DNA of 64,000 nt from Granulicella arctica (GTDB lineage: Bacteria > Acidobacteriota > Terriglobia > Terriglobales > Acidobacteriaceae), in contig NZ_JACCCW010000002.1 in assembly GCF_013410065.1 (NCBI RefSeq), forward strand, positions 1,054,001 to 1,118,000, written 5' to 3'. The translations under genes and the position numbers were made by a program. Below are positions 44,040 through 60,820 of the stretch, piece after piece; the first letter of the stretch is position 1; each line of letters begins with the position of its first letter. The notes beneath the pieces are model-generated. The model had not been told where the DNA came from and did not search any database. It was given only the letters and a program-made list of their open reading frames with translations.

Positions 44040-44549
44040 TCAGAGCTCTTGCAATCGGAAGATGTGCTGATGATAGATATTGGCAGGGGATGATGGACAG
44101 GAACTGGTCGTTATCGCGGCAGCATCAATATAGGTCGGCTTCCGATCACAGGAATTGTCGACAGCGTTCGCTGGGCTTAGCCGGTCCCAGAAGAATTGAA
44201 TGCAGACCCAACCCAGCTTATCGAGATGAATCTCCTCACCCGATGCAGCCACAACAGTTGCTGTCTGCGGACCATAGATCAACGGTCGCGGCGTAATTGC
44301 GAGCGGCCGGTGTTCCAGATCGCTGGAGATCGCAGAGAATCGATTGGCGTAGTCATCTCTTCTTCCATCACCCGAACTGCGGTACGGAAGAACCTGATCG
44401 ACTCGATGGATCACCTCTGTCAAAAGATCCTTGCGATTCCAATCGTCTCTCGGATGCTCCGTCATGCTGAACATATATCCTTGCTCGCTCCCGCTGAACA
44501 TCCAACCCCAAACGTGATACCTTGCCTCCAACCGCGCCATGCCAGCCAC
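44040..44549 (-). pseudogene. VgrG (type VI secretion spike) remnant
   Basis: A 169-codon frame whose first two-thirds match the middle of VgrG/Rhs-tip proteins: GYMFSMTEHPRDDWNRKDLL, then ANRFSAISSDLEHRPLAITP and PLIYGPQTATVVAASGEEIH, ending with LGWVCIQFFWDR (WDR at about 44183-44191). After the WDR the rest (to 44040) has no resemblance. A full VgrG is over 600 residues, so both ends are missing. No T6SS gene is nearby. The 5' end overlaps the alginate lyase start on the other strand, so a rearrangement may have joined the two. Confidence 0.75.
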
Positions 44550-45693
44550 TCATCCAACCCGACGAACCTTTTGCACCGCCGCCGCTCTCACCTTCTTTGG
44601 CCATCACCTGGGAAAAGCCCAGCAGCCAACGCTCTACGCCTCCGCACGCCCCGATGTAGCCGCCATCGACCATGACCGTATCCTCGCCGCAGCCAACAAA
44701 GCGCTCACCATCAGCACCACCCCACTCACCGCCCTCAAATCTCCCGGCAACCCACACGATTTTTACTCCGAAGCCGAAGGCCTCACCGCTTTCACAGCCC
44801 ACCGCGACGCCGTCTTCAACTTCAGCCGTCGGATCGCCGATCTTGCGGCCGCCTTCCATCTCACGCACGATGACCGCTATGCCGCGCACGCCGCTCTCCA
44901 TCTCCACGCCTGGTTCATTGATCCGGCCACCCGCATGACCCCCGACCTCACTCACGCCGCGACCATCCCCGGCGATCCTAAGCCCCACTTCGAAGGCATC
45001 CTCGACACCGTCTTCTTCGCAGAACTGGCCCAGGCCATTCCCTTTCTTGCCAGCTCCAACTCACTCTCCACAGAGCATCTCTCCCAGATCAAAGCCTGGT
45101 TCGCCGCCTATCTTCAGTGGCTCACCACATCACGGCTCGCCGCCCTCGCTCGCGAGCAAAAGGATCACCACGGCACCTCGTGGCTTCTGCAATCCGCCGC
45201 CTATGCCCGCCTCACCCAAAACGAAGCCGTCCTCTCAGACCTTCGTCACCAATTCAAAACAGTCACCCTCCGCGCCCAGATCGTCACAACCGGCACCTTT
45301 CCCCATGAACTCACCACGCCCTATCCCTATCGCAACTCGCTCTTCAACCTCGATCTGCTTGCCGCCTCCTGCCTGCTCCTCTCCTCGCAGTTCGAGAGCT
45401 TATGGGAGTTCGAGCTACAGGACGGCCCTGGTCTCCGCATCGTCATCGCCCGCCATGTCCCCTACATTCAGAGCCGCGGCACGTGGCCCTACCGTGCCGA
45501 CCTTGACCACTTCGACGACCTGCCTGTCCGCAATCCCAGCCTGCTCTTCGCTGCCCGCGCCTACACCCGACCCGAGTACGCCGAGCTCTGGAAGACCCTC
45601 AACCCCGACCCCACCATTCCCGAGATCGCGCGTACCTTCCCTATCTCACAGCCACTGCTCTGGACCACCAGACCGCACCTGCCTAAGGCTTGA
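44539..45693 (+). CDS. secreted alginate lyase family protein
   Basis: A 384-residue protein of the PL5-like alginate lyase family, an alpha/alpha-barrel that cuts uronate polymers. The N-terminus is a twin-arginine-type signal (THPTRRTFCTAAALTFF). Core segments include LKSPGNPHDFYSEAEG, DDRYAAHAALHLHAWFIDPA, KDHHGTSWLLQSAAYARLTQ (with the conserved Asn/His/Trp region) and FPHELTTPYPYRNSLFNLDL. The family breaks alginate, giving 4-deoxy uronates. It opens the sugar-acid region and converges with the next gene with an 11-bp overlap. Confidence 0.83.
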   Translation: MPATHPTRRTFCTAAALTFFGHHLGKAQQPTLYASARPDVAAIDHDRILAAANKALTISTTPLTALKSPGNPHDFYSEAEGLTAFTAHRDAVFNFSRRIADLAAAFHLTHDDRYAAHAALHLHAWFIDPATRMTPDLTHAATIPGDPKPHFEGILDTVFFAELAQAIPFLASSNSLSTEHLSQIKAWFAAYLQWLTTSRLAALAREQKDHHGTSWLLQSAAYARLTQNEAVLSDLRHQFKTVTLRAQIVTTGTFPHELTTPYPYRNSLFNLDLLAASCLLLSSQFESLWEFELQDGPGLRIVIARHVPYIQSRGTWPYRADLDHFDDLPVRNPSLLFAARAYTRPEYAELWKTLNPDPTIPEIARTFPISQPLLWTTRPHLPKA

Positions 45694-47775: not shown

Positions 47776-48798
47776 ATGCTCCGCGTTCCCTTCGCCGACC
47801 TTTACGCCGCCCTCCATCGTGGCATGCTCGCCCTCGGCCTCACCGGCGAACGCGCCGAACTCTGCGCCCGCCTCTTCGCCGAAACCACTCGCGACGGCGT
47901 TTATACCCATGGCCTCAACCGCTTCCCTCGCTTCACCTCGATGGTGAACAACGGCAGCGTCGACGTCCATGCTCAGCCCGAGCGCATCGCCAGAATCGGT
48001 GGCCTCGAGCGCTGGGATGCCCACCTCGGCCCCGGCAATCTCGCCGCCTACGCCTCCATGAACCGCGCCATTGAGCTCTCCCGCCAGCATGGTCTCGGCG
48101 CCGTCGCCCTCGCCAACACCACCCACTGGATGCGCGCAGGAACCTACGGCTGGCTCGCCGCGGAGGCAGGCGTCTTTGGCATCTGCTGGACCAACACCAT
48201 GCCCAACCTTCCGCCCTGGGGAGCCACCACCGCAGCCCTCGGCAACAACCCCATCGTCCTCGCCGTGCCCCGCCTCAACGACAACGGAGAGCCTGCCCAC
48301 ATCGTCCTCGACGTCGCCATGTCCCAGTTCTCCTATGGAGCCATCGACTCCTATCGCAAGCGCGGCGAGCTTCTCCCCGTCGACGGTGGCTTCGACACCG
48401 CAGGCAACCTCACCCGCGACCCAGAAGCCATCCACGCCTCGCAGCGCGCTCTGCCCATCGGCTACTGGAAGGGCTCCGGTCTCTCCATGACGCTCGATCT
48501 CTTCGCCGCCATGCTCTCCGGCGGGCAGGCCACCAATCAGATTCCCCGCGACCCCACCCGCGAATCCGGCGTCTCTCAATTCTTCCTCGCCATCGATCCG
48601 TCCAGCTTCGCCTCCTCCACAGAGCTCAAGCGCATCGCCGACGGCGTCCTCGCCTCCGTCCACGACGCAACACCAGTAGAACCCGGCAAACCGGCCCGCT
48701 ATCCCGGCGAGCAAACGCTCCTCATCCGCGAAGAGAACATGCGCCTCGGAGTACCCGTCGATCCCGATATCTGGCATCAGCTCACGGTGTCCGATTAG
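47776..48798 (+). CDS. malate/L-lactate dehydrogenase-family enzyme, YiaK-like
   Basis: A 340-residue NAD(P)H-dependent enzyme of the malate/ureidoglycolate/YiaK family, best matching 3-dehydro-L-gulonate 2-dehydrogenase. Family segments are TRDGVYTHGLNRFPRF (catalytic His), GPGNLAAYASMNRAIELSRQ, ANTTHWMRAGTYGWLAAEAG, GNNPIVLAVPR and GYWKGSGLSMTLDLFAAMLS. The role is reduction of a keto sugar acid. The ATG has no strong ribosome binding site. Its neighbours (alginate lyase, Gfo/Idh, lar and uxa genes) support work on uronates or their keto acids. Confidence 0.88.
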   Translation: MLRVPFADLYAALHRGMLALGLTGERAELCARLFAETTRDGVYTHGLNRFPRFTSMVNNGSVDVHAQPERIARIGGLERWDAHLGPGNLAAYASMNRAIELSRQHGLGAVALANTTHWMRAGTYGWLAAEAGVFGICWTNTMPNLPPWGATTAALGNNPIVLAVPRLNDNGEPAHIVLDVAMSQFSYGAIDSYRKRGELLPVDGGFDTAGNLTRDPEAIHASQRALPIGYWKGSGLSMTLDLFAAMLSGGQATNQIPRDPTRESGVSQFFLAIDPSSFASSTELKRIADGVLASVHDATPVEPGKPARYPGEQTLLIREENMRLGVPVDPDIWHQLTVSD

Positions 48799-49931: not shown

Positions 49932-50765
49932 ATGCCTCTGAGAGAAAAATCCGCTGCCCTGCACAACACCCTGCTAGAACTCGGCTCGGTGTTGGTCGCC
50001 TACTCAGGAGGCACCGACTCAGCCTTCCTTGCCTATGCTGCGCATCGCGCCCTCGGCGACAAGATGCTCGCCGTCATCGCTGACTCCGCTTCTCTCCCCC
50101 GCACCGAGCTCGCCACCGCTCTCGCCTTCACCGCCGAGCACAACATCCCCACCCATATCCTCACCACCAACGAACTCGATAACCCCGACTACCAGCGCAA
50201 CGACAGCCAGCGCTGCTACCACTGTAAAGACGAGCTCTTCACCCAGATGGAAGCCTTCCGCGTCGCCAGCGGCTTCGCACACCTTGCCTACGGCATGAAC
50301 CTCGACGACCGCAGCGAGTTCCGCCCCGGCCAACAGGCCGCCGCACTCCACCACGCCGTCGCTCCCCTCGTCACCGCGCAGCTTACCAAGGGCGAAATTC
50401 GCACCCTCGCTCGCGAAGCCAATCTCCACGTCTGGGACAAACCAGCCTCCGCCTGCCTCGCCTCGCGCGTCGAGTATGGTCGCCCCGTCACCCGCGAAAA
50501 CCTTAACCAGGTCGAGCAAGCCGAAGAAGCCCTGCGCGCTCTCGGCTTCCGCCAGCTTCGCGTCCGCTACCACGGCGATCTCGCTCGCATCGAGATCGAC
50601 CGCACCGAGCTTCCCGCTGCCCTCAACCTCGACGCACTCGACCGCATCACCGCGGCCCTCCGGTCCCTCGGCTTCCTCTACGTCACCCTCGACACCCAAG
50701 GCTATCGCTCCGGCTCCATGAACGATGTCCTCCCCACCTCCGCCATTCTCCCGGCGGCAAAGTAA
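49932..50765 (+). CDS. larE: LarE: ATP-dependent sacrificial sulfur insertase
   Basis: Makes the thio groups of the nickel-pincer cofactor by giving up the sulfur of its own cysteine. 277 residues with the PP-loop SGGTDS at 25-30, and the sacrificial cysteine Cys175 in KPASACLASR, so it is the single-Cys type rather than the iron-sulfur type. NDSQRCYHCKDELF is the other conserved segment. First gene of a larE-larC-larB operon; no ribosome binding site is clear, and a TACAAT at 49918-49923 close to the ATG may be a -10 box of a nearly leaderless transcript. Confidence 0.93.
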   Translation: MPLREKSAALHNTLLELGSVLVAYSGGTDSAFLAYAAHRALGDKMLAVIADSASLPRTELATALAFTAEHNIPTHILTTNELDNPDYQRNDSQRCYHCKDELFTQMEAFRVASGFAHLAYGMNLDDRSEFRPGQQAAALHHAVAPLVTAQLTKGEIRTLAREANLHVWDKPASACLASRVEYGRPVTRENLNQVEQAEEALRALGFRQLRVRYHGDLARIEIDRTELPAALNLDALDRITAALRSLGFLYVTLDTQGYRSGSMNDVLPTSAILPAAK

Positions 50766-50788
50766 TCCCGAACAAAGGAATTCACCCC

Positions 50789-52120
50789 ATGCGCATCGCC
50801 TATCTCGACTGCTTCGCCGGAATTAGCGGCGACATGTTCCTCGGCGCACTGATCGACGCCGGAGTCGATCCAAACGTTCTTCACGACGCCGTCGCCGCCC
50901 TCAACCTCGGCGCAACCCTCCGCATCGAAACCGTTGACCGCAGCGGCATCTCCAGCACTAAAGTCCACGTTATGGAAGGCACCCGACTAGCCGAAACAAC
51001 CCAGTACGAGCATGGCCACACTCACCAGCATCATCCCCGCACCCAGCACCAGCACAAGGCTGGCCATCCCCACACGCACGACGAGCACCAACACGCACAT
51101 GGCCGCTCCCTCAGCGTAATCCGCAACCTCATCCAATCTGCCTCACTCGACGCGCCGGTCAAACAGACTGCCATCCGTGCTTTCGAGCTCCTAGGAGCCT
51201 CTGAAGCCAAGATCCACAACGTCCCCGTCGAGCAGATCCACTTCCACGAGGTCGGTGCCGTTGACGCCATCGTCGATATCGTCGCGGCCTCCGCAGGCAT
51301 CCACGCACTCCACGTCCAGCAGTGGTTTGCGAGCCCCCTCAACGTAGGCGGCGGCATGGTTGATTGCGCCCACGGCCGCTTCCCTGTCCCCGCGCCCGCC
51401 ACCGCCGACCTCCTCAAAGGCATCCCCACCTACTCCGCCACCGTCCAGATGGAGCTCGTCACGCCCACCGGAGCCGCGCTCCTCCGCGCCCTCGACTGCA
51501 CCTTCGGCCAACAACCCCTCATGCGCGTCGAACGCATCGGTTACGGCGCAGGCTCCCGCAATCCGAAGAACTTCCCCAACGTCCTCCGCCTCTCCATCGG
51601 CGATTCAGCCTCCGTCCCCGAAACTCCGGGTGCCCCATCCTTCGCGCTTTATGCGGAGGGTGGGATCGACGGAACCGAGACCGTCACCATCCTTGAAACC
51701 GCCCTCGACGACCTAAACCCGCAGATCCTGGCCTACGTCACCGAGTCCGCCTTAGCCCTCGGTGCCTGCGACGTCATGTGCACCGCCGTGCAGATGAAGA
51801 AAGGCCGCCTCGGCACTCTCCTCACCATCCTCACCGACAGCGCCCACGCCGCAGCCCTCGAGCGTCTCCTGCTCCGCGAAACCAGCACCCTCGGCATCCG
51901 CATCCACCACGAGCACCGCTCCTGCCTCGATCGCACCCACGTCCCCGTTGCCACGCCCTACGGCGAGGTCCGCATCAAAGTCGGCTCCCTCCGCGGCGAA
52001 GAACTCAACGCGCAACCCGAGTTCGAAGACTGCTGCGCCGCTGCCGCCACGCACAACGTCCCTATAAAACAAGTCCTCCAGGCCGCCACCGCCGCCTACC
52101 TCAACGGTAAAGCCCAATGA
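50789..52120 (+). CDS. larC: LarC: nickel insertase for the pincer cofactor
   Basis: Cyclometallates the pincer with nickel (CTP-dependent). 443 residues. The N-terminus IAYLDCFAGISGDMFLGALI is diagnostic, followed by a His-rich segment at about residues 74-105 (HGHTHQHHPRTQHQHKAGHP) that may store nickel, HFHEVGAVDAIVDIVAASAG, and a C-terminal LarC2 half (ETALDDLNPQILAYVTE). In Lactiplantibacillus the gene is split and joined by programmed frameshift; here it is a single uninterrupted frame. It overlaps larB by ATGA. Confidence 0.95.
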   Translation: MRIAYLDCFAGISGDMFLGALIDAGVDPNVLHDAVAALNLGATLRIETVDRSGISSTKVHVMEGTRLAETTQYEHGHTHQHHPRTQHQHKAGHPHTHDEHQHAHGRSLSVIRNLIQSASLDAPVKQTAIRAFELLGASEAKIHNVPVEQIHFHEVGAVDAIVDIVAASAGIHALHVQQWFASPLNVGGGMVDCAHGRFPVPAPATADLLKGIPTYSATVQMELVTPTGAALLRALDCTFGQQPLMRVERIGYGAGSRNPKNFPNVLRLSIGDSASVPETPGAPSFALYAEGGIDGTETVTILETALDDLNPQILAYVTESALALGACDVMCTAVQMKKGRLGTLLTILTDSAHAAALERLLLRETSTLGIRIHHEHRSCLDRTHVPVATPYGEVRIKVGSLRGEELNAQPEFEDCCAAAATHNVPIKQVLQAATAAYLNGKAQ

Positions 52121-52866
52121 ACCGCACCACCCTGCTCGATCTGCTGGCTGAAGTCCAGCGCGGAACAATCACAACCGAGCAAGCCACGGCCCAGCTCGCC
52201 AACCTCCCCTTCGAAGACCTCGGCTACGCCAAGATCGACCACCATCGCAGCCTCCGTACCGGCCTGCCCGAGGTCATCTACGCCGCCGGTAAGACACCTG
52301 CGCAGACCGCCGAAATTTTTAGCCGGATGGCCGCTACCGGCGTAGCCGTCCTCGCTACCCGAGCCACCTCCGAAACCTTCGAAGCCGTCCACACCCTTAC
52401 CCCAGAAGCAACCTATCACCCCATCGCCCGCGCCATCACCCACGGCTCCGCTCTCACCACACAGGGTAAGATTGCCGTCCTCTCGGCAGGTACCAGCGAC
52501 CTCCCTGTCGCCGAAGAAGCCGCCGTCACCGCCGAACTCTTCGGTGTTCGCGTCACCCGCATCACAGACGTCGGCGTCGCCGGCGTCCACCGCCTCCTCG
52601 CCCATCGCGACACCCTTAGCAACGCCGATGCCATCATCGTCTGCGCCGGCATGGAAGGCGCGCTCCCCTCCGTCGTCGGCGGTCTCGTCGGCGTCCCCGT
52701 CATCGCCGTCCCCACCAGCGTAGGCTATGGAGCCTCCTTTGCTGGAGCAGCAGCTCTCCTCGGCATGCTCAACTCCTGTTCTCCCAACGTCACCGTCGTC
52801 AACATCGACAACGGCTTTGGCGCAGCCTACACCGCAACCCTCATCGCCCACGCCGCCCACAGGTAG
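52117..52866 (+). CDS. larB: LarB: pyridinium dicarboxylate synthase of the pincer cofactor
   Basis: Carboxylates and hydrolyses nicotinic acid adenine dinucleotide in the first step of pincer synthesis. 249 residues of the PurE-like AIR carboxylase fold: GLPEVIYAAGKTPAQTAEI, VLSAGTSDLPVAEEAAVTAE, DVGVAGVHR and MEGALPSVVGGLVGVPVIAV. It starts inside the larC stop. The three lar genes are in the order E, C, B and lack a larA or nickel transporter within the operon; a LarA homologue lies 4 kb on. Confidence 0.95.
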   Translation: MNRTTLLDLLAEVQRGTITTEQATAQLANLPFEDLGYAKIDHHRSLRTGLPEVIYAAGKTPAQTAEIFSRMAATGVAVLATRATSETFEAVHTLTPEATYHPIARAITHGSALTTQGKIAVLSAGTSDLPVAEEAAVTAELFGVRVTRITDVGVAGVHRLLAHRDTLSNADAIIVCAGMEGALPSVVGGLVGVPVIAVPTSVGYGASFAGAAALLGMLNSCSPNVTVVNIDNGFGAAYTATLIAHAAHR

Positions 52867-52982
52867 CCTCCGACCCACATAAATCCCTGTACCTCTTCAG
52901 GTTCTGATCCATGCAACCGAATGCTTGCATCTCATAAGTGCGGAAGAGTATGGTTTTCTCCGCGTAGTAAAGAGGTGTAATC

Positions 52983-53240
52983 ATGCTTCCCTTCGACCGA
53001 AAACCCTTTGCCAGACCTCTCGCGATCACAGTAATTGCTTTGTCTTTCATCGGAGCTGCCTGCCTTGCGTTCTACTTTTACATCAACGATTCGCTGCATA
53101 TCTCCGAGGTAGTCGGCATCTTTCTGCTCCTCCTCACCATCGTGCCTCCCAACGTAGCCATCGTCATGCGTAAACCAGGCGACATCGAGGCGTTCGACTC
53201 GCACCCTCCTTTGGGACACAGACGCTCCACCATTCGGTAA
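52983..53240 (+). CDS. small two-helix membrane protein
   Basis: An 85-residue protein with two hydrophobic helices (ITVIALSFIGAACLAFYFYI and VVGIFLLLLTIVPPNVAIVM) and short hydrophilic ends. AAGAGGTG precedes the ATG. It is not a family I recognise. It stands alone between the lar operon and a strong terminator that it shares with the converging SDR gene. Confidence 0.6.
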   Translation: MLPFDRKPFARPLAITVIALSFIGAACLAFYFYINDSLHISEVVGIFLLLLTIVPPNVAIVMRKPGDIEAFDSHPPLGHRRSTIR

Positions 53241-53250
53241 TCACCTAACT

Positions 53251-53290
53251 AAGAGAGCGGGAATGGGAGCCATCCCATGCCCGCTCTCTT
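53251..53290. terminator. bidirectional rho-independent terminator
   Basis: AAGAGAGCGGG at 53251-53261 pairs with CCCGCTCTCTT at 53280-53290, and ATGGGA pairs with TCCCAT inside, with one mismatch and a GCCA loop. It serves the converging genes ending at 53240 and 53306. Confidence 0.87.
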
Positions 53291-53305
53291 CTGCCTTAGC
53301 TCGTT

Positions 53306-54082
53306 CTACTGGTTGACACCACTCGCCAGAAATCCTCCATCGACCACCAGAATCTCCCCGGTAATAAACGCCGAAGCGTCGCTCGCCAGAAAGATCGCCG
53401 CCCCTACCAGCTCCTCCGTCTTACCGAACCGTCCCATCGGCGTGCGCATACGCAGCTCCTTGCCTCGTTCGCTCTTATCCAGCAAATCCGCGTTCAGAGC
53501 CGTCCGAAAGACACCCGGAGCAATCGCATTCACCGTCACTCCCAGCGAACTCCACTCCACCGCCAGTGACTTCGTCAACGCCCCCACAGCAGCCTTGCTC
53601 GCCGCATACGCGGTCACTTCTTTCAATGAGACAAACGTGTTCAACGAAGCGATATTGATGATCCGCCCATAACCCCGCTCAAGCATATGCCTGCCGAATA
53701 TCTGGCACGCTCGCAGCGTCCCCGTCACATTCGTATCCATAATGTCGTTCCACGTCTCTTCGGGAAAATCGACCGTCGGCGCTCGCTTGATCTTCCCCGC
53801 GCAGTTGATGAGGATATCAACCTTCTCCAACTCCTTCACCGTCTCATCCAGCAACGCCTGCAACGAGGCGCGATCTCCTACATCCGAGGTCAGCCGCAGC
53901 GACTTCACGCCCTTCGCTTCAATCGCGCTCGCCGCCTCGTCCACCTGCTCCGCGCGGCGCGAGCTCGCAACGACATTGGCCCCAGCCTCAGCCAGACCAA
54001 CCGCCATCGCCAGCCCAATACCCGACGTCCCGCCCACAACCACAGCCGTCTTGCCGCTCAGATCAAACAAGGGATGTCCCAT
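53306..54082 (-). CDS. SDR oxidoreductase, gluconate 5-dehydrogenase / KduD-like
   Basis: A 258-residue NAD(P)-dependent short-chain dehydrogenase. The Rossmann motif is VVVGGTSGIGLAMAVGLAEA, the catalytic Ser is in IINIASLNT, and Tyr-x3-Lys is in YAASKAAVGALTKSLAVEW; NAIAPGVFRTALN and GEILVVDGGFLA close the fold. By family it acts on a keto sugar acid such as 5-keto-gluconate or a deoxy-uronate. In this operon (after GntK, UxaE and a LarA homologue) it is the only reductase and could reduce fructuronate to mannonate; that is inference. The ATG at 54082 has an AGGAT upstream; a TTG at 54100 is an alternative. Confidence 0.88.
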   Translation of the reverse strand: MGHPLFDLSGKTAVVVGGTSGIGLAMAVGLAEAGANVVASSRRAEQVDEAASAIEAKGVKSLRLTSDVGDRASLQALLDETVKELEKVDILINCAGKIKRAPTVDFPEETWNDIMDTNVTGTLRACQIFGRHMLERGYGRIINIASLNTFVSLKEVTAYAASKAAVGALTKSLAVEWSSLGVTVNAIAPGVFRTALNADLLDKSERGKELRMRTPMGRFGKTEELVGAAIFLASDASAFITGEILVVDGGFLASGVNQ

Positions 54083-54096
54083 CGAAGATAATCCTC

Positions 54097-54594
54097 TCAA
54101 TCCTCATCATGAATATGTAACAGTATCTGTTGCACAATCTCTTCCGGCGACCGGTCATTCTTTATCCGCAACGCATCCTTCGGGACCTCCAGCGTCGCAA
54201 GTTGGCTATCCAGTAATGCTGGGTTCATGAACTCGTGATGCCTGGCCTTCATCCGCTCCGCGATCTGCTCCTTCGACAATTCCAGCAGCACGAAGTCTAC
54301 CGCACCCGCAGGCATCCCCGACACCAGCGTCGCCCGGTACTTATCCTTCAGGGCTGAGCACGCCAGCACACCGCCGATCCCAGCCTCGAACCATCCGCGC
54401 ATCACTCCGTTCAGCGTCTCCAGCCATGGCTGCCGATCCTCATCATTCAGCGGATGGCCTGCCGCCATCTTCTGCTTATTCGCAATCGGATGATAATCAT
54501 CTGCATCAGCGAAGACAACGCCCTCACGCTCGGCCAGCAACGCGCCAATCGTCGACTTCCCCGATCCGCTTACCCCCATCAAGACAACGATCAT
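54097..54594 (-). CDS. gntK: gluconokinase
   Basis: Phosphorylates D-gluconate to 6-phosphogluconate with ATP. 165 residues with Walker A MGVSGSGKSTIGALLA, the substrate-binding ADADDYHPIANKQKMAAGHP-type segment (DDYHP, then LNDEDRQPWL), and the C-terminal RHHEFMNPALLDSQLATLE. Full length for the family. It lies five bases after UxaE and 14 bases before the SDR start, in one operon with a LarA homologue. This kinase needs gluconate as substrate, which is a clue to the pathway. Confidence 0.94.
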   Translation of the reverse strand: MIVVLMGVSGSGKSTIGALLAEREGVVFADADDYHPIANKQKMAAGHPLNDEDRQPWLETLNGVMRGWFEAGIGGVLACSALKDKYRATLVSGMPAGAVDFVLLELSKEQIAERMKARHHEFMNPALLDSQLATLEVPKDALRIKNDRSPEEIVQQILLHIHDED

Positions 54595-54599
54595 TGGAA

Positions 54600-55862
54600 T
54601 CAGAGCCCCAGGAACACCGGTTTGATGTGCCGCTCGAACAGGTTCGTGGTCACATTCTTTGCCACAATTTCCTCGTTCGCTTCAAGCGCTTTCAGATACC
54701 GGTCGCCCATCTTCGCAGCAACCTTGAAGCCCACATGCAGCAGTTGCCGGAAGCTCTGGTTATACGCCTTGTTCGATTGGTCATGCCGCAGCGCCGAGGT
54801 GAACTGCTCGCTCGTCCAACTATTGACTACCTCAGGCGTCGGCAGCTTCGCCGGATCGATGTCGATCACCGTCGCATACGGCGCACAAAGCTCCTCACTG
54901 TGCGCATACGCGTCGGCATACACCTCCTTCGCGATCTCAAGTCCCGATCCGCCGGCCTCCGCCAGCCCAATCAACTCCTCGAGCCACGTCGTCCCCGCCG
55001 TCTTCACATGCACGCCCGCGCCGAACTTCTTCACGCCATCGTGGATCGCCTTGTAGATCGAAAACTTGTCCGAGCCGGAGTGCACACTGAGCTTCAGATT
55101 CTCCGGCAACCCGTATGTCCTGATCGCAAACGCAATCGCCGCCAGGTCTTCTTCAAACTCCTTCGTGAACTGCGCCACGTCTCCCACATAGTCCACGCCC
55201 TTGTTGAAGCGGCCGGTAAACTTCGGTGCAATCGTCTGGATCGGGATCTTCTCGTCCGCAATCGCTGCCAGAATAATCAGTAGCTCCACCGGCGTCTGCG
55301 GCGAATCCGTCTCGTCCATTGACACCTCAGGCACGAAGTTCCCCGCGCCCTTCTTCTCCACCAGCAGACGATAGATCTCCCCCGCATGTTGCACCGCCGC
55401 GAGGAACTTGTTCGCCACTCCGGTAACAAATGTCTCATCTGTCTTAAACGGCTCGGCGATATGCGGAATCGTCACCGTCCCCACCAGCTCCGGATGCCGC
55501 TTTACAAACGCCGCTACCGCCTCCGGCTTCGCCGGCTGACCGATCAGGTCTGCCACATCGAGCGTAAAGAAGTCGCACGGCGCAAGAAACCGTTCCACCG
55601 TCTTCAGGTTGATATGGTCCGCATCGAGAAAGTACGGTTTGGTCCAGCCAAGCTCCTTCACTGCCACATCCGCCGCCTTACGCGTCTGACTCGGCTCCGA
55701 ACCTATAATCATGTGCTCGCGGTTCGACTTGTTCCATACCGGAATAACCTCAACACCTGCATCAGCCGCCAACACGCACGCCGCAAGCTGAGCTTTTGCC
55801 TGATGAGCGAAACGATCACCCACGCCCACCGAAAACTTTGGAAGCCTCAATCCATCACTCAT
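54600..55862 (-). CDS. uxaE: tagaturonate/fructuronate epimerase UxaE
   Basis: A metal-dependent epimerase that interconverts D-tagaturonate and D-fructuronate. Family motifs are SVGVGDRFAHQ near the start, FTLDVADLIGQ, VSMDETDSPQTPVELL, APKFTGRFNKGVDYVGDV and LSVHSGSDKFSIY. The ATG at 55862 gives 420 residues and has GGAG ten bases before it; the frame is open to 55940 but that part does not match. It links the galacturonate and glucuronate branches without UxaA/UxaB. It lies 101 bp after the LarA homologue and five bases before gntK. Confidence 0.9.
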   Translation of the reverse strand: MSDGLRLPKFSVGVGDRFAHQAKAQLAACVLAADAGVEVIPVWNKSNREHMIIGSEPSQTRKAADVAVKELGWTKPYFLDADHINLKTVERFLAPCDFFTLDVADLIGQPAKPEAVAAFVKRHPELVGTVTIPHIAEPFKTDETFVTGVANKFLAAVQHAGEIYRLLVEKKGAGNFVPEVSMDETDSPQTPVELLIILAAIADEKIPIQTIAPKFTGRFNKGVDYVGDVAQFTKEFEEDLAAIAFAIRTYGLPENLKLSVHSGSDKFSIYKAIHDGVKKFGAGVHVKTAGTTWLEELIGLAEAGGSGLEIAKEVYADAYAHSEELCAPYATVIDIDPAKLPTPEVVNSWTSEQFTSALRHDQSNKAYNQSFRQLLHVGFKVAAKMGDRYLKALEANEEIVAKNVTTNLFERHIKPVFLGL

Positions 55863-55963
55863 CGCAATACCACTCCAATTTCCATGCAAGATTGGTCTAA
55901 CCACTTTGCCGTTACCCAGCATACTGACTCCCCAGCGCAACGGGCAAATCTAGCAGGTCCCAA

Positions 55964-57241
55964 TCAGTCCTTGAAGCGCCCCTCATACGCCCAGAGCCCC
56001 AGCCCCGGGTTCGAAATGTAAAAGATCTCCTCACCATCGACCATGTTCCAACCGTCCGCCAGCACCTCCGGGTTGTACTTCGCTGTCATTGACGCCAGGT
56101 CGCCATACTCGAAGTGCACGCTCTCAATCTCCGCCCGCGTCAGGTGTCCCGGACAGTACCGGATCGTAAACCGCCCCTCGCTTGAGCCATGGATCAGGTG
56201 CGCCGCCGCACTCAGGTTCCCTGCCAGATCAGCATCGTGCTTCACCGCCTCGAGCGTCGCCGGCGTCCCACAATACCCATACTTACGGATCAGCCTGTCA
56301 ATCGCCGCATCTTCTCCGAACTCATGCACACCGGGAGCCAGCACGATCAGCTCAGCGTTATCGGCCAATGCCATGCGAGTGCGGTACACACTCTTGTTCC
56401 CCAACCAGGTACTTCGAAACTCATGCGGATCAAGAAACACGACCGCCTTCTTGATCTCCCGCTTCATTATCAGGAAGTTGACCTTTAGGCTCAGCTCCGC
56501 CGCGCGCTCGAAGCACTCCGCATCATCGCCCACATACATTCCGCGGATCACCAGCTTCCCAGCAGCATTTTTGCCCACCACCGTCTGCACATAAACAATC
56601 TGCGGCATCTCGCTGCCGAAGTGCTCGCTCGCGTAGTTCAGCACACGTCGCACCGGCGTCTCCGCCCGCCCCATCATCCGCTCCATTCCATACACTGCAC
56701 CGAGAAAGTGCGAACGATGAATCCCCATCACCCCGCCCGTACCGACGAAGATATTCTTGTTCCCATTCGCCATCCCAACCACCTCATGCGGGACCACCTG
56801 CCCGATCGACAGAATCAGATCATGCCCGCCGTCCCGCAGCAACTTGTTCACCTGCGCGGGCCACGAGTAGTCGACCTTCCCCTCGCTCACCTCCCGCACA
56901 AACTCACCCGGCACCTCTCCCAGAGTCACAATATCGTTCCGCCAGTCATGCACCCGGAACAACCCACGCGGCGTACTGCCGAACATCGTCGCGATCTCGG
57001 TGTCCGTCATCGCCTTGTGCGTTCCCAACGCGGGAAGAACATCCATAAGCCTGTCGCCGTAGTACTCCCACGCCAGCTCCGTCAACACCCCGCTCTGCGA
57101 ATGCATCCGCGTAAAGTCCGGCGGAACAGCCAGTACACGTTTACGCGGCCCTACCTTGTCAAGCGCGGTGAAAAGGTTACTTTTGACCTCTTCAGGAGAC
57201 ATTTCTGTAGTAGGCGAGCCAGCGGCAAAAAATAAACTCAT
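55964..57241 (-). CDS. LarA-family nickel-pincer racemase/epimerase homologue
   Basis: A 425-residue homologue of lactate racemase. Key residues are present: GTHKAMTDTEIATMFG with His75, PHEVVGMANGNKNIF with His152 and Lys162 (the lysine that tethers the pincer), and His178 in GIHRSHFLG; the spacing of 10 and 16 residues between them equals that of LarA His174-Lys184-His200. It begins the operon LarA homologue-uxaE-gntK-SDR, so it is unlikely to act on lactate. LarA-family members are known to include a D-gluconate 2-epimerase, and this gene fits that role (mannonate to gluconate). The cofactor would come from larECB 3 kb away. Confidence 0.88.
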   Translation of the reverse strand: MSLFFAAGSPTTEMSPEEVKSNLFTALDKVGPRKRVLAVPPDFTRMHSQSGVLTELAWEYYGDRLMDVLPALGTHKAMTDTEIATMFGSTPRGLFRVHDWRNDIVTLGEVPGEFVREVSEGKVDYSWPAQVNKLLRDGGHDLILSIGQVVPHEVVGMANGNKNIFVGTGGVMGIHRSHFLGAVYGMERMMGRAETPVRRVLNYASEHFGSEMPQIVYVQTVVGKNAAGKLVIRGMYVGDDAECFERAAELSLKVNFLIMKREIKKAVVFLDPHEFRSTWLGNKSVYRTRMALADNAELIVLAPGVHEFGEDAAIDRLIRKYGYCGTPATLEAVKHDADLAGNLSAAAHLIHGSSEGRFTIRYCPGHLTRAEIESVHFEYGDLASMTAKYNPEVLADGWNMVDGEEIFYISNPGLGLWAYEGRFKD

Positions 57242-57457
57242 AGCTCCACATGGTACTCCGTGCTAGCATCCCGGATACCGGCAGATAGAGTTGCACCCTG
57301 TTTACAAGCAAGGCGCAACCCTATACGTCATGTCCCCTACTTCGGGCAGCAAGAAGTCCCTGTAGTACTGTTCTTCCTGCCCTTTTTCTGCGCCCCAAGA
57401 CAGAAGCAGCAGATTAAACAAAATCCACTCGCACCTTATTTCAAAGAGGCTCCGATC

Positions 57458-59254
57458 ATGAACCAGAAGGTAAAGTCAGCCATCCTCAGCCTGGCGATTC
57501 TCAGCCTGAGTGCGTCTTCATTCACCCTGCATGCAGCGGAGAAAGCCGTCCTGCAAAGCCGCGTGGCCGCCACCGATCAGGTCGGCTTCGATGTATATCT
57601 GCCCCTGCAACATCGTGACCAACTCGAGATCGACCTTCATAATCTGCATGATCCCAACTCCTCCACATACCAGAAGTGGCTCACACCCGAGCAGTTCCAT
57701 GCGCGCTATGGCGCAACCTCCAGCCAGCTAACAGCAATCCAGAATCAACTCACCACCTATGGCCTCCAGGCCAGCATCGTAACCCCGCAGCACATCCACG
57801 TAACCGGTTCCGCCACCTCAGTAGAGCAAGCCCTCGGTACAGTCCTGAAACATGGCATCTATCCGAGCGGCAAGACCACCATTGTCGCCGCTCAAGCAAT
57901 CAGCACGCCGAGCACGCTCAGTCAGGTCAACGCAGTCGTCACCGGCCTCTCCGGAACGATCCGCATGCGGACGCACTCACACCCAGCCGCTCTCCCCCAG
58001 AACCGCTATAGCGCGACAGGCGGCTACTTTTTCGACGATCTAAAGCAAGCCTATAGCTATCCAAGCTACAAGACCTACACCGGCAAAGGGGTCACCATCG
58101 GCATCCTGATGACGGGCGACTTCAATCCACCGGACATGACCAAATACTTCACACATGAGAAACTCGCAACCCCGAGCTACACCACCATCCAAATCGATGG
58201 CGGAGCGCCCTTCAGTGCCACAGGTTCCTTCGAAACCCATCTTGACCTCCAGCAGAGCGGCGGCATGGCCCCGGATGCCAAGGTGATCCTCTACAACCTG
58301 CCCGACCTCTCCGATGCCCACATCATGGACGGCCTGTCGCAGATCCTCGCCGATAACAAGGCCGACGTGGTCAGCATGTCCTTCGGCGCTCCCGAGCTCT
58401 TCTACACCGCGGCCTACAACGACGGAACCGACTACACCTACCTCTTTCAAGAGGAGGATGACCTGATGGCCCAGGGCAACGCTCAGGGCATCACCTTCAT
58501 CGCCTCCTCCGGAGACTCCGGCGCTCTGAGCGCCTTTCCTGTAGTCTGCTTCAACGGTGGCCCCGATTGCGGCTCCGCTGAGGCTTCGGTCCAGTTTCCA
58601 GCCTCCAGTCCCCATGTCACCGGCGTTGGCGGCACCAATCTCATCACCACCTACACCGGCAGCACCAGCGACCTCAACTCAACCTATATACGCGAGGAAG
58701 CCTACGCCGATCCGCTTTCATCGGATATCTTCTACGGCACCTCGGCCACCGGTAGCTACTGGGGCTCAGGCGGCGGGGACAGCATCCTCTACAAGAAGCC
58801 CCTCTTCCAGGGCCTGGTCAATACAGGCAATGCGAAGTTCCGCACTGTTCCCGATCTTGCGCTGCATATGGGCGGATGCCCCTATGGCGTGATCGGCACC
58901 TGCAACCCGGACGATAGCTATGACTACGAGGTGATCGGCGATGTATACGAAGGCGTCATCGGCACCAGCGCCTCCGCTCCCGATTTCGCTGGCCTCACCG
59001 CACTCAACATCCAACGGCAACATACACGGCTTGGCAACGAAAACTACTACATCTACACGCTTGCACTGCTCCAGAATATTGGGCTGCCGATCGACGTCTT
59101 CAAGACGAACATCCCTGGCTACAATGGCCTTTACCACACCACTCCAAAGGGTTATAACCGCGTACTCGGCAACGGAACACTGAACGGCGTGAACTTCCTG
59201 CTCGCGCCCTTCACCCCCGTAGCTGGAGTTCCGCAGACGCCTAGCAACCCCTAA
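57458..59254 (+). CDS. secreted S53 family (sedolisin/kumamolisin) peptidase
   Basis: A serine-carboxyl acid endopeptidase with signal peptide (ILSLAILSLSASSFTLHA), a pro-domain of about 150 residues (LQHRDQLEIDLHNLHDPNSS, then KWLTPEQFHARYG), and a catalytic domain with Glu and Asp in SFETHLDLQ, oxyanion Asp in ASSGDSGA-type segment and Ser in GTSASAPDFAGL. The end ends near 598 residues, full length. The ATG at 57458 has GAGG eight bases upstream; the frame is open to 57260 with a weaker start. The protein acts in acid surroundings, consistent with soil acidobacteria. Confidence 0.9.
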   Translation: MNQKVKSAILSLAILSLSASSFTLHAAEKAVLQSRVAATDQVGFDVYLPLQHRDQLEIDLHNLHDPNSSTYQKWLTPEQFHARYGATSSQLTAIQNQLTTYGLQASIVTPQHIHVTGSATSVEQALGTVLKHGIYPSGKTTIVAAQAISTPSTLSQVNAVVTGLSGTIRMRTHSHPAALPQNRYSATGGYFFDDLKQAYSYPSYKTYTGKGVTIGILMTGDFNPPDMTKYFTHEKLATPSYTTIQIDGGAPFSATGSFETHLDLQQSGGMAPDAKVILYNLPDLSDAHIMDGLSQILADNKADVVSMSFGAPELFYTAAYNDGTDYTYLFQEEDDLMAQGNAQGITFIASSGDSGALSAFPVVCFNGGPDCGSAEASVQFPASSPHVTGVGGTNLITTYTGSTSDLNSTYIREEAYADPLSSDIFYGTSATGSYWGSGGGDSILYKKPLFQGLVNTGNAKFRTVPDLALHMGGCPYGVIGTCNPDDSYDYEVIGDVYEGVIGTSASAPDFAGLTALNIQRQHTRLGNENYYIYTLALLQNIGLPIDVFKTNIPGYNGLYHTTPKGYNRVLGNGTLNGVNFLLAPFTPVAGVPQTPSNP

Positions 59255-59320: not shown

Positions 59321-60730
59321 CTACAGCTTGTAAGCCTTCCGCACCAGGTTGACCGTAAGATCCAGCACTACCTCGAACGCCTCATCCTCATCCAGACGAT
59401 GCTCCGCCACCAGCCTGCCAAGGAAGGCGCAGTCGATTCGCCGCGCCACATCATGCCGCGCCGGGATCGACAGAAACGCTCGCGTATCGTCGTTGAAGCC
59501 CACTGTGTTGTAGAAGCCCGCCGTCTCCGTTGCCTGCTCGCGGAACCGCATCATCCCCTCCGGCGAATCGTGGAACCACCATGGCGGCCCCAGCCTCAGC
59601 GCCGGATAGTGTCCCGCCAGCGGAGCCAGCTCACGCGAAAACGTAGTCTCATCCAGCGTAAACAGAATCAATGTGAACCCGGGAGCATTGCCGTACCGAT
59701 CCAGCAGTGGCCGCAGCGCCCGCACATACTCTGTCGGCGAAGGGATGTCCGCACCCTTGTCCCGCCCGAACTTCTCGTACACCAATTTGTTGTGGTTCCG
59801 CACCGAGCCCGGATGCAGTTGCATCGTCATCCCATCCTCGACGCTCATCCCCGCCATCTCTGTCAGCATCTGCGCCTGGAAGAGTTCGACTTCTTTCGCG
59901 TCCGCCTTCCCCACGTAGATCTTCGCGTACAGATCCTCTGCCTCACGCAAACTCAAGTCGGCCGTCAACGCCGTCAGATGGCCATGATCGGTCGCCGTCG
60001 CGCCCAGGCTACGGAAGAACTCCCGCCTCTTTCGCAATGCCGCCAGATACCCCTTCCAGTTCGACACATCCTCGTCCGCAACCTCTCCGAGCTTTTGGAT
60101 GTTCTCCTTGAACCCGATGTACTCCGCATCGATCACCGCATCCGGACGGAACGTCGGCACCACCCGTCCCTTCCAGCCCGACTCGCGAATCTGCTTATGC
60201 CATTTCAAATCATCGAACGCTGCATCCGTCGTTGCCAGCACCTCGATCTTGAACTCGTCGAACAGTGCCCTCGGTAAAAACTCCGGCGTCGTCAGCTTCT
60301 TCGCAATCACCTCGTAATACTCTTCCGCATTCGCCATGCTAAGACGGTTCTTCAGCCCGAACTGGTTCTGCAACGTATAGTCCAGCCATAACCGCGTCGG
60401 CGTACCCCGGAACAGATAGTAGTGCTTCGCAAAGATACGCCATACCTCCCGCGGATCGGCCTGCTCCTTCCCATCTACCTGCGGAATCCCCAACGACTCC
60501 AGCGACACGCCCTGCGAGTATAGCATTCGAAAGATGTAATGGTCCGGCTGGATCAACAGCGCCGTTGGATTCGGAAACGCCTTGTTCTCCGCAAACCAGC
60601 TCGGATCGGTATGCCCATGCGGAGAAATGATCGGCAGGTCTCGCACCACTTCGTACAGTCTTGCAGCCACCACGTGCGCAGCACCCTCAGCAGGAAACAG
60701 CCGGTTCTTATCCAACATCCACATCACCAT
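59321..60730 (-). CDS. uxaC: glucuronate/galacturonate isomerase UxaC
   Basis: Converts D-glucuronate to D-fructuronate and D-galacturonate to D-tagaturonate. About 469 residues of the amidohydrolase-like fold with ISPHGHTDPSWFAENKAFPN (metal-binding His pair), EDGMTMQLHPGSVRNHNKLV, PPWWFHDSPEGMMRFREQ and GFNDDTRAFLSIPARHDVAR. The start is uncertain: ATGs at 60730, 60724 and 60718 follow each other, and a TTG at 60739 opens the frame. It stands apart from the uxaE operon, downstream of a porin gene and its terminator. Confidence 0.93.
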   Translation of the reverse strand: MVMWMLDKNRLFPAEGAAHVVAARLYEVVRDLPIISPHGHTDPSWFAENKAFPNPTALLIQPDHYIFRMLYSQGVSLESLGIPQVDGKEQADPREVWRIFAKHYYLFRGTPTRLWLDYTLQNQFGLKNRLSMANAEEYYEVIAKKLTTPEFLPRALFDEFKIEVLATTDAAFDDLKWHKQIRESGWKGRVVPTFRPDAVIDAEYIGFKENIQKLGEVADEDVSNWKGYLAALRKRREFFRSLGATATDHGHLTALTADLSLREAEDLYAKIYVGKADAKEVELFQAQMLTEMAGMSVEDGMTMQLHPGSVRNHNKLVYEKFGRDKGADIPSPTEYVRALRPLLDRYGNAPGFTLILFTLDETTFSRELAPLAGHYPALRLGPPWWFHDSPEGMMRFREQATETAGFYNTVGFNDDTRAFLSIPARHDVARRIDCAFLGRLVAEHRLDEDEAFEVVLDLTVNLVRKAYKL

Positions 60731-60820
60731 CCACCACAAAGATTTGTTCGCACATCGAACCTAAGCAGCCTATCAAATTGGCTGGACCAGTTCCATCTAT
60801 AACTCTCCCACACCAAAGGA

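Follow-up and report, generated by a model that had tools for sequence, protein, structure and literature searches.

A four-gene operon of Granulicella arctica probably encodes a route for hexuronates whose end product is 6-phosphogluconate rather than 2-keto-3-deoxygluconate (KDG), with a nickel-dependent homologue of LarA at its centre. The operon occupies positions 53306..57241, on the minus strand, of what we call the window, the whole stretch of 64,000 nucleotides that was analysed (assembly GCF_013410065.1, contig NZ_JACCCW010000002.1, positions 1,054,001 to 1,118,000). In the proposed route, the isomerase UxaC would convert galacturonate to tagaturonate and glucuronate to fructuronate, UxaE would epimerize tagaturonate to fructuronate, and a short-chain dehydrogenase/reductase (SDR) would reduce fructuronate to D-mannonate. 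The LarA homologue, loaded with the nickel-pincer nucleotide (NPN) that LarB, LarC and LarE from neighbouring genes would make, would then invert C2 of D-mannonate to give D-gluconate, which GntK would phosphorylate to 6-phosphogluconate; Edd and 2-keto-3-deoxy-6-phosphogluconate (KDPG) aldolase, encoded elsewhere in the genome, would complete the breakdown. We infer every substrate, and also the order of reduction, epimerization and phosphorylation. While the order just given is the probable one, it is very likely that C2 inversion by the LarA homologue takes hexuronates to 6-phosphogluconate in some order.

The genes concerned are as follows (window coordinates, those of uxaE and the SDR gene assuming the protein starts MSDG... 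and MGHP..., respectively):

55964..57241, minus strand, larA homologue, LarA homologue (LarAH) group 18 (NF052594, 644 bits, cut-off 500)
54600..55862, minus strand, uxaE, tagaturonate/fructuronate epimerase (PF16257, 175.9 bits, cut-off 27.1)
54097..54594, minus strand, gntK, gluconokinase of the P-loop GntK/IdnK type (TIGR01313, 149.4 bits, cut-off 113.75)
53306..54082, minus strand, SDR gene, proposed fructuronate (5-keto-mannonate) reductase (SDR family matches)
59321..60739, minus strand, uxaC, uronate isomerase, start codon uncertain (NF002794, 580.4 bits, cut-off 387)
49932..50765, plus strand, larE, sulfur transferase of NPN cofactor synthesis (TIGR00268, 315.5 bits, cut-off 150)
50789..52120, plus strand, larC, nickel insertion protein of NPN cofactor synthesis (TIGR00299, 212.5 bits, cut-off 90; NF052512, 136.7 bits, cut-off 50)
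52117..52866, plus strand, larB, NPN cofactor biosynthesis protein (NF033503, 285.5 bits, cut-off 175)
57260..59254, plus strand, S53/pro-kumamolisin peptidase gene, outside the pathway (PF09286, 76.1 bits)

These coordinates bear out the minus-strand order larA homologue, uxaE, gntK, SDR and the gaps of 101, 5 and 14 bp given in the original prediction, a note made from the DNA alone. That note had overlooked larE-larC-larB (49932-52866, plus strand), which lies just past the SDR gene on the opposite strand; all three NPN cofactor genes thus adjoin the operon, each above its cut-off. UxaE matches the Pfam UxaE family, and its best solved relative is 6il9 (E 2.4e-28).

The LarA homologue falls in LarAH group 18, curated as 'putative hexonate epimerase', and its predicted fold and its curated family match both place it in the LarA superfamily. 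The predicted fold is nearest to 4nar, the closest solved structure, which is that of GntE2 of Thermotoga maritima, an assayed D-gluconate 2-epimerase (PubMed Central (PMC) accession PMC7583248). Residues D42, R45, H75, H152, K162, H178 and K283 correspond to D72, R75, H108, H174, K184, H200 and K298 of LarA; the first six of these catalytic and NPN residues align with LarA itself, and K283 aligns with the Lys of 2yjg and with 4nar. The His-His-Lys-His set that had been predicted is therefore present, but it agrees with the claimed LarA spacing only across the last three residues (77/10/16 here, 66/10/16 in LarA; PMC7583248). GntE enzymes carry the signature E,V,A,H, and lactate racemases have F,F after the catalytic His (PMC11770544). 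In the window protein E153 and V154, aligned to LarA positions 175 and 176, supply the E,V, and the catalytic and NPN residues together with this E,V are found in 86/86 group-18 proteins retrieved from the order and in 8/8 LarA homologues retrieved from it that lie outside this group. A347-H348 is invariant and aligns with A351-H352 of 4nar, in a region (LarA 358, 359) that no alignment to the LarA sequence reached. We propose that the protein is a nickel-dependent hexonate C2 epimerase converting D-mannonate to D-gluconate.

The rest of the genome (4.31 Mb in three contigs, 99.97% complete) is consistent with such a step. Of the named proteins listed as matches, the closest belong to Granulicella and Edaphobacter (86-87% identity). 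It has no match to UxuA (PF03786) and none to Mannitol_dh_C (PF08125), the family of UxuB and UxaB, whereas control genomes matched both; the altronate dehydratase UxaA was not searched for. The canonical UxuA/UxuB hexuronate pathway was thus not found, and neither was the complete uxuA/uxuB/kdgK set elsewhere in the genome to which the original prediction could have fallen. Among uxuA, uxuB, kdgK and kdgA, the first two are without match, and both a KDPG aldolase (TIGR01182, 207.9 bits, cut-off 156.05) and a candidate KDG kinase are present. The latter is a PfkB-family kinase that stands with the aldolase gene beside kduI (387.4 bits, cut-off 250) and a kduD-like SDR gene (333.3 bits, slightly under the cut-off of 338.85); it passed no KDG kinase model, and we take it as a KDG kinase because of its place beside these genes. 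The unsaturated-uronate branch at this kdu locus needs a KDG kinase and KDPG aldolase anyway. Edd is present (969.9 bits, cut-off 708.25), so 6-phosphogluconate has an outlet. With UxaC, UxaE, the SDR, the LarA homologue, GntK, Edd and KDPG aldolase all encoded, the chain would close without UxuA, UxuB or KDG kinase. The sequence UxaC/UxaE, SDR, LarA homologue, GntK, as put forward in the original prediction, is supported as the best explanation: UxuA and UxuB are without match, Edd and KDPG aldolase are both encoded, and the LarA homologue passes the LarAH18 model.

Family searches over 120 genomes of the order, each at least 90% complete, place this gene set in a wider setting. UxaE was found in 73 genomes (NF052594 above cut-off in 69 of them), and a LarA homologue accompanied it in all 73, against 19 of the 47 genomes that lack UxaE (20 if a weak 44.9-bit match is counted). 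Full-length UxuA, defined by a score of at least 300 bits and so leaving out 19 further genomes with only weaker PF03786 matches, occurred in 15 of the 73 UxaE genomes; any PF03786 match occurred in 33. UxaE, full UxuA and Mannitol_dh were never found together (0/120), and full UxuA joined Mannitol_dh in two genomes only, both without UxaE. GntK, or a PfkB substitute described below, was present in 72/73 UxaE genomes. The idea that UxuA and LarAH18 are mutually exclusive was rejected, since LarAH18 was found in 18 of the 19 genomes with full UxuA. These 18 genomes with both indicate that LarAH18 is no strict replacement for UxuA and that the LarA route is not the sole one in every genome.

The arrangement of the genes is not a matter of chance. 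Among 99 stretches taken from genomes of the order, 94 because of a LarA homologue and five because of UxaE, the exact order larA-uxaE-gntK-SDR occurred in 22 and the same set with an added PfkB kinase in two, while four had larA-uxaE-PfkB-SDR, with PfkB replacing gntK. Partial sets were larA-uxaE-SDR (11/99), larA-gntK-SDR (10/99) and larA-SDR (3/99). Among the genes tallied, the companions of larA were the SDR (66 stretches), UxaE (50), UxaC (48) and GntK (37), the SDR cluster having been formed by single linkage at 38% identity, so that it may hold a few other SDRs; SDR and larA shared a strand in 62 of 63 stretches. All three loci with larA and SDR only also carry uxaC, and these would fit glucuronate use, for which UxaE is not needed.

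Two further groups of LarA homologues were seen in the order. In eight genomes (L185-L192) the LarA homologue is of another kind, with 28-30% identity to that of the window; L185, the one tested, matches T. maritima GntE2 (4nar) at 238.8 bits, and an SDR, UxaE or major facilitator superfamily transporter gene lies near the LarA homologue in seven of the eight. This is apparently a second LarA group in the same role. A second LarAH18 clade in Terriglobales (L165-L184; 44-48% identical), to which many planctomycete loci belong, has larE and larB adjoining LarAH18 in 10/20 loci and uxaE and SDR genes in only 4/20.

Outside the order we surveyed the best 80 of 575 distant LarAH18 loci in the genome_contigs collection, ranked for a query from the other LarAH18 clade and so no census; several of these stretches are short, so absences there mean little, SDRs were counted at a loose 60-bit threshold, and the tallies of flanking genes cover hand-picked, co-directional open reading frames only (65/85 and 71/181). 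The window's own clade accounts for 30 of the 80 loci (55-68% identity), whose titles name Bacteroidota, Verrucomicrobiota and relatives, Bacillota, Spirochaetes and Acidobacteria. These 30 loci contained 6-phosphogluconate dehydrogenase (Gnd) in 18 cases, SDR in 16, PfkB kinase in 10, UxaE in eight, UxaC in seven and UxuA in one. One or more of SDR, Gnd, PfkB, UxaC and UxaE occurred in 24/30 loci of this clade versus 13/50 of the other, and Gnd alone in 18/30 versus 4/50 (Fisher 7.8e-7, relatedness ignored); in L240, a locus of the other clade and one of the 22/80 with Gnd, this gene is 6.6 kb away on the opposite strand. The 13/50 in the other clade, many of whose loci are titled planctomycete, suggests that group 18 as a whole may lack a single role. 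GntK gave no match at 55 bits in the 80 distant loci (tblastn with the window GntK as query); FGGY kinases were not sought.

The kinase appears to be the exchangeable part of the module. GntK is above cut-off in 73/120 genomes of the order, but in G029, G054, G008 and G094 (window's genus) GntK is without match and a PfkB-family kinase fills the gntK slot between uxaE and the SDR gene (L101:4455-5561, and likewise L099, L100 and L110). In L118 and L132 (G079 and G048) the operon carries both kinase genes as neighbours, which looks like a replacement halfway through. Matches of at least 568 bits (at least 69% identity) were taken as this swap kinase, in 26 genomes, and those of 322.3 bits (48%) or less as paralogues, one of which also occurs in 25 of the 26. 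In the 84 genomes with LarAH18, GntK is the sole kinase of the pair in 59 and the PfkB kinase in 21, with two genomes having both and two neither (Fisher 1.8e-15, relatedness ignored), and a LarA homologue is present in 26/26 PfkB-kinase genomes against 66/94 others. A quick LarAH18 tree of 84 rows, with many weak branches, requires eight changes for GntK and nine for PfkB; relatedness weakens the association, because few of the switches lie on well-supported branches, where the two independent pairs leave a sign test incapable of significance. Outside the order, the swap kinase (71-76% identity) lies beside LarAH18 in four loci, directly after the 6-phosphogluconate dehydrogenase gene in L290 and L299.

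From its position, then, the PfkB protein in the slot is a candidate gluconokinase of an unexpected family; we know of no PfkB-family gluconokinase. It may instead be a second KDG kinase, for it is as near to the KDG kinase 2afb, the nearest solved relative of both, as is the kdu-linked kinase (169 and 164.5 bits, respectively). The KdgK model NF052444 (cut-off 400) does not separate the two, because both fall below it (swap kinase 40.3 bits, kdu-linked kinase 21.5). A different PfkB subfamily, about 33% identical to the acidobacterial one, directly precedes LarAH18 in the Bacteroidota loci L288, L296, L300, L306, L311 and L312, with 6-phosphogluconate dehydrogenase downstream in five of these six.

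The most general form of our proposal has three parts: that a nickel-dependent, UxuA-free route is standard for pectin-derived and glucuronate sugars in the order, that the module recurs with Gnd in Bacteroidota and Verrucomicrobiota, and that its kinase is interchangeable between GntK and a PfkB gluconokinase now annotated as a KDG or sugar kinase. We consider this wider statement to be evenly balanced between right and wrong.

Several points weigh against the proposed route, some on the enzyme and some on its setting. Full UxuA is also found in 18/84 LarAH18 genomes, and 43/80 distant loci have none of SDR, Gnd, PfkB, UxaC and UxaE in the stretch, so group 18 does not always occur in a uronate context. 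In the GntE signature, the A,H half is doubtful, as PMC7583248 equates LarA W358 with GntE2 N348, which aligned here to S344. In the passages of the open-licence PMC literature available, we found no report of an assay of a group-18 enzyme, and the assayed enzymes have a high KM (Michaelis constant) for D-mannonate (GntE1, 120 mM; GntE2, 17 mM; PMC7583248), so the native substrate could be another. Finally, the score of the SDR is higher for gluconate 5-dehydrogenase than for D-mannonate oxidoreductase, as would suit a pathway with its steps in a different order.

That other order needs the same genes: the LarA homologue would turn fructuronate (5-keto-D-mannonate) into 5-keto-D-gluconate, and the SDR would reduce this to gluconate. 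Among the matches listed, the best 25 of 237 families, the SDR scores highest against gluconate 5-dehydrogenase (NF006070, 259.6 bits), still below the cut-off of 279, and reaches 220.3 bits against the SDR-type D-mannonate oxidoreductase (NF006132), below its cut-off of 281. The only cut-off that it passes among these is that of NF005559, 'glucose 1-dehydrogenase' (218.8 bits, cut-off 215), which does not name its substrate, because the KduD-like protein encoded in the same genome also exceeds it (224.3 bits). The best and third of its solved relatives, 5u9p and 1vl8, are both named gluconate 5-dehydrogenase, 1vl8 presumably being T. maritima TM0441. The high D-mannonate KM values would also suit this order, and the SDR as commonest companion of larA (66/99) fits successive steps either way round. 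However, the SDRs beside LarAH18 in a second distant set, mostly Bacteroidota, match D-mannonate oxidoreductase best (E 3.3e-118, the next SDR family 2.1e-56), which favours a mannonate intermediate there, and we found no LarA homologue reported to act on a keto-hexonate in the available passages of the open-licence PMC literature. We regard epimerization before reduction as unlikely, although it is the alternative to be taken most seriously, and the SDR of the window may work like a D-mannonate oxidoreductase despite its score below the cut-off.

Phosphorylation could instead precede epimerization, as in Lactobacillus suebicus, with GntK or PfkB acting on mannonate and the LarA homologue being a 6-phosphomannonate 2-epimerase. 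This would need the same genes, and the products were identified in extracts of L. suebicus (PMC6978723), but the epimerase gene of that organism was not identified there. The assayed GntE enzymes use free mannonate and gluconate (PMC7583248, PMC11770544), the cluster kinase is above the GntK cut-off, and E. coli GntK is reported to be inactive on mannonate (cited in PMC6978723); a kinase-first order is, in our view, quite improbable.

A third alternative would dispense with the LarA homologue in uronate breakdown: a dehydratase of an unrecognized family would make KDG from mannonate or gluconate, KDG kinase would follow, and LarA and GntK would serve exogenous gluconate. The genome does have the probable KDG kinase, KDPG aldolase, three enolase-superfamily proteins and, besides Edd, a second IlvD/Edd-family protein, and full UxuA is retained in the 18 LarAH18 genomes mentioned above. 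However, the three enolase-superfamily proteins score 176.5, 56.5 and 30.2 bits against D-mannonate dehydratase (ManD, cut-off 550), and none reaches the cut-offs for D-gluconate or D-galactonate dehydratase; their best models are L-rhamnonate dehydratase, L-talarate/galactarate dehydratase and o-succinylbenzoate synthase, of which the last alone passes its cut-off. The candidate KDG kinase sits with the kduI, kduD-like and aldolase genes, and the association of LarAH18 with 6-phosphogluconate dehydrogenase that is seen in other phyla would have no explanation; we think this alternative very improbable. Least credible of all is a racemase of lactate or another small 2-hydroxyacid that lies here by chance: many such proteins bear the name 'nickel-dependent lactate racemase' in one sequence source, and Desguin et al. 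caution that genomic context is not always a guide to activity (PMC7583248), but the lactate racemase model gives 20 bits against a cut-off of 460, the residues after the catalytic His are E,V and not F,F (PMC11770544), and the context is conserved across phyla.

Some features around the operon lie outside this argument. The opposite-strand S53 peptidase gene splits uxaC from larA, and a peptidase match stands beside larA in only one of the 99 stretches from relatives (L144, genome G045). Near the lar genes, the window also encodes an alginate-lyase-family protein (44539-45693; PF05426, 149.1 bits) and a 3-dehydro-L-gulonate 2-dehydrogenase (47776-48798; 416.3 bits, cut-off 316), possibly another sugar-acid branch. 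A scan of 52600-57600 for promoters and terminators gave counts at chance level.

If the proposed route from mannonate through gluconate to 6-phosphogluconate is correct, hexuronate use in these soil bacteria would depend on nickel and NPN, and the carbon would enter as 6-phosphogluconate; on its UxuA/UxuB content alone, such a bacterium would be taken to be incapable of using galacturonate in this way. Furthermore, LarAH group 18 would gain a testable function, and a PfkB protein would be predicted to phosphorylate gluconate. A LarA-type step in hexuronate use is not itself new, even for this bacterial group: epimerization of mannonate to gluconate in T. maritima was proposed by Rodionova et al. 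2012 (cited in PMC6978723; also PMC7953866), who noted gntE homologues in Acidobacterium and Terriglobus (cited in PMC6978723), and GntE activity was demonstrated in vitro in 2020 (PMC7583248), in agreement with the earlier note, which had mentioned a reported LarA-family D-gluconate 2-epimerase. In Thermotoga, uxaE, uxaR, uxaD and gntE form one regulon (PMC7953866). For group 18, a hexonate substrate was merely hypothesized in the 2020 paper (PMC7583248). In the open-licence PMC literature we did not find the absence of UxuA and UxuB described here, the co-occurrence across the order, the link between group 18 and 6-phosphogluconate dehydrogenase or the exchange of GntK for PfkB.

The known systems share parts of the proposed route. 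The canonical isomerase pathway (UxaC, UxuB, UxuA, KdgK, KdgA) has the same first step, UxaC, and the same KDPG aldolase, but its UxuA and UxuB families are without match in the window genome. L. suebicus, like the route proposed here, takes galacturonate to 6-phosphogluconate by way of UxaC, UxaE and mannonate and makes no use of UxuA or KDG kinase; however, it phosphorylates before epimerization, uses UxuB as reductase and continues into the phosphoketolase pathway (PMC6978723). The hexuronate route proposed for T. maritima is similar in its UxaE, LarA-family C2 epimerase and gluconokinase. It differs in keeping UxuA and a Mannitol_dh-family enzyme, both of which matched as controls and are without match in the window genome, and T. 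maritima was not among the controls that matched TIGR01313 GntK, whereas the kinase is GntK in the window and probably PfkB in some relatives. The known D-gluconate 2-epimerases are GntE1 of C. glutamicum (group 19), GntE2 of T. maritima (group 20) and LarAH15 of Phytophthora nicotianae. The window enzyme resembles the known GntEs in its predicted fold (nearest GntE2), its catalytic and NPN residues and the Glu after the catalytic His (PMC7583248, PMC11770544), but it belongs to a separate sequence group, group 18 (NF052594), and has E,V after the catalytic His where GntE2 has E,S.

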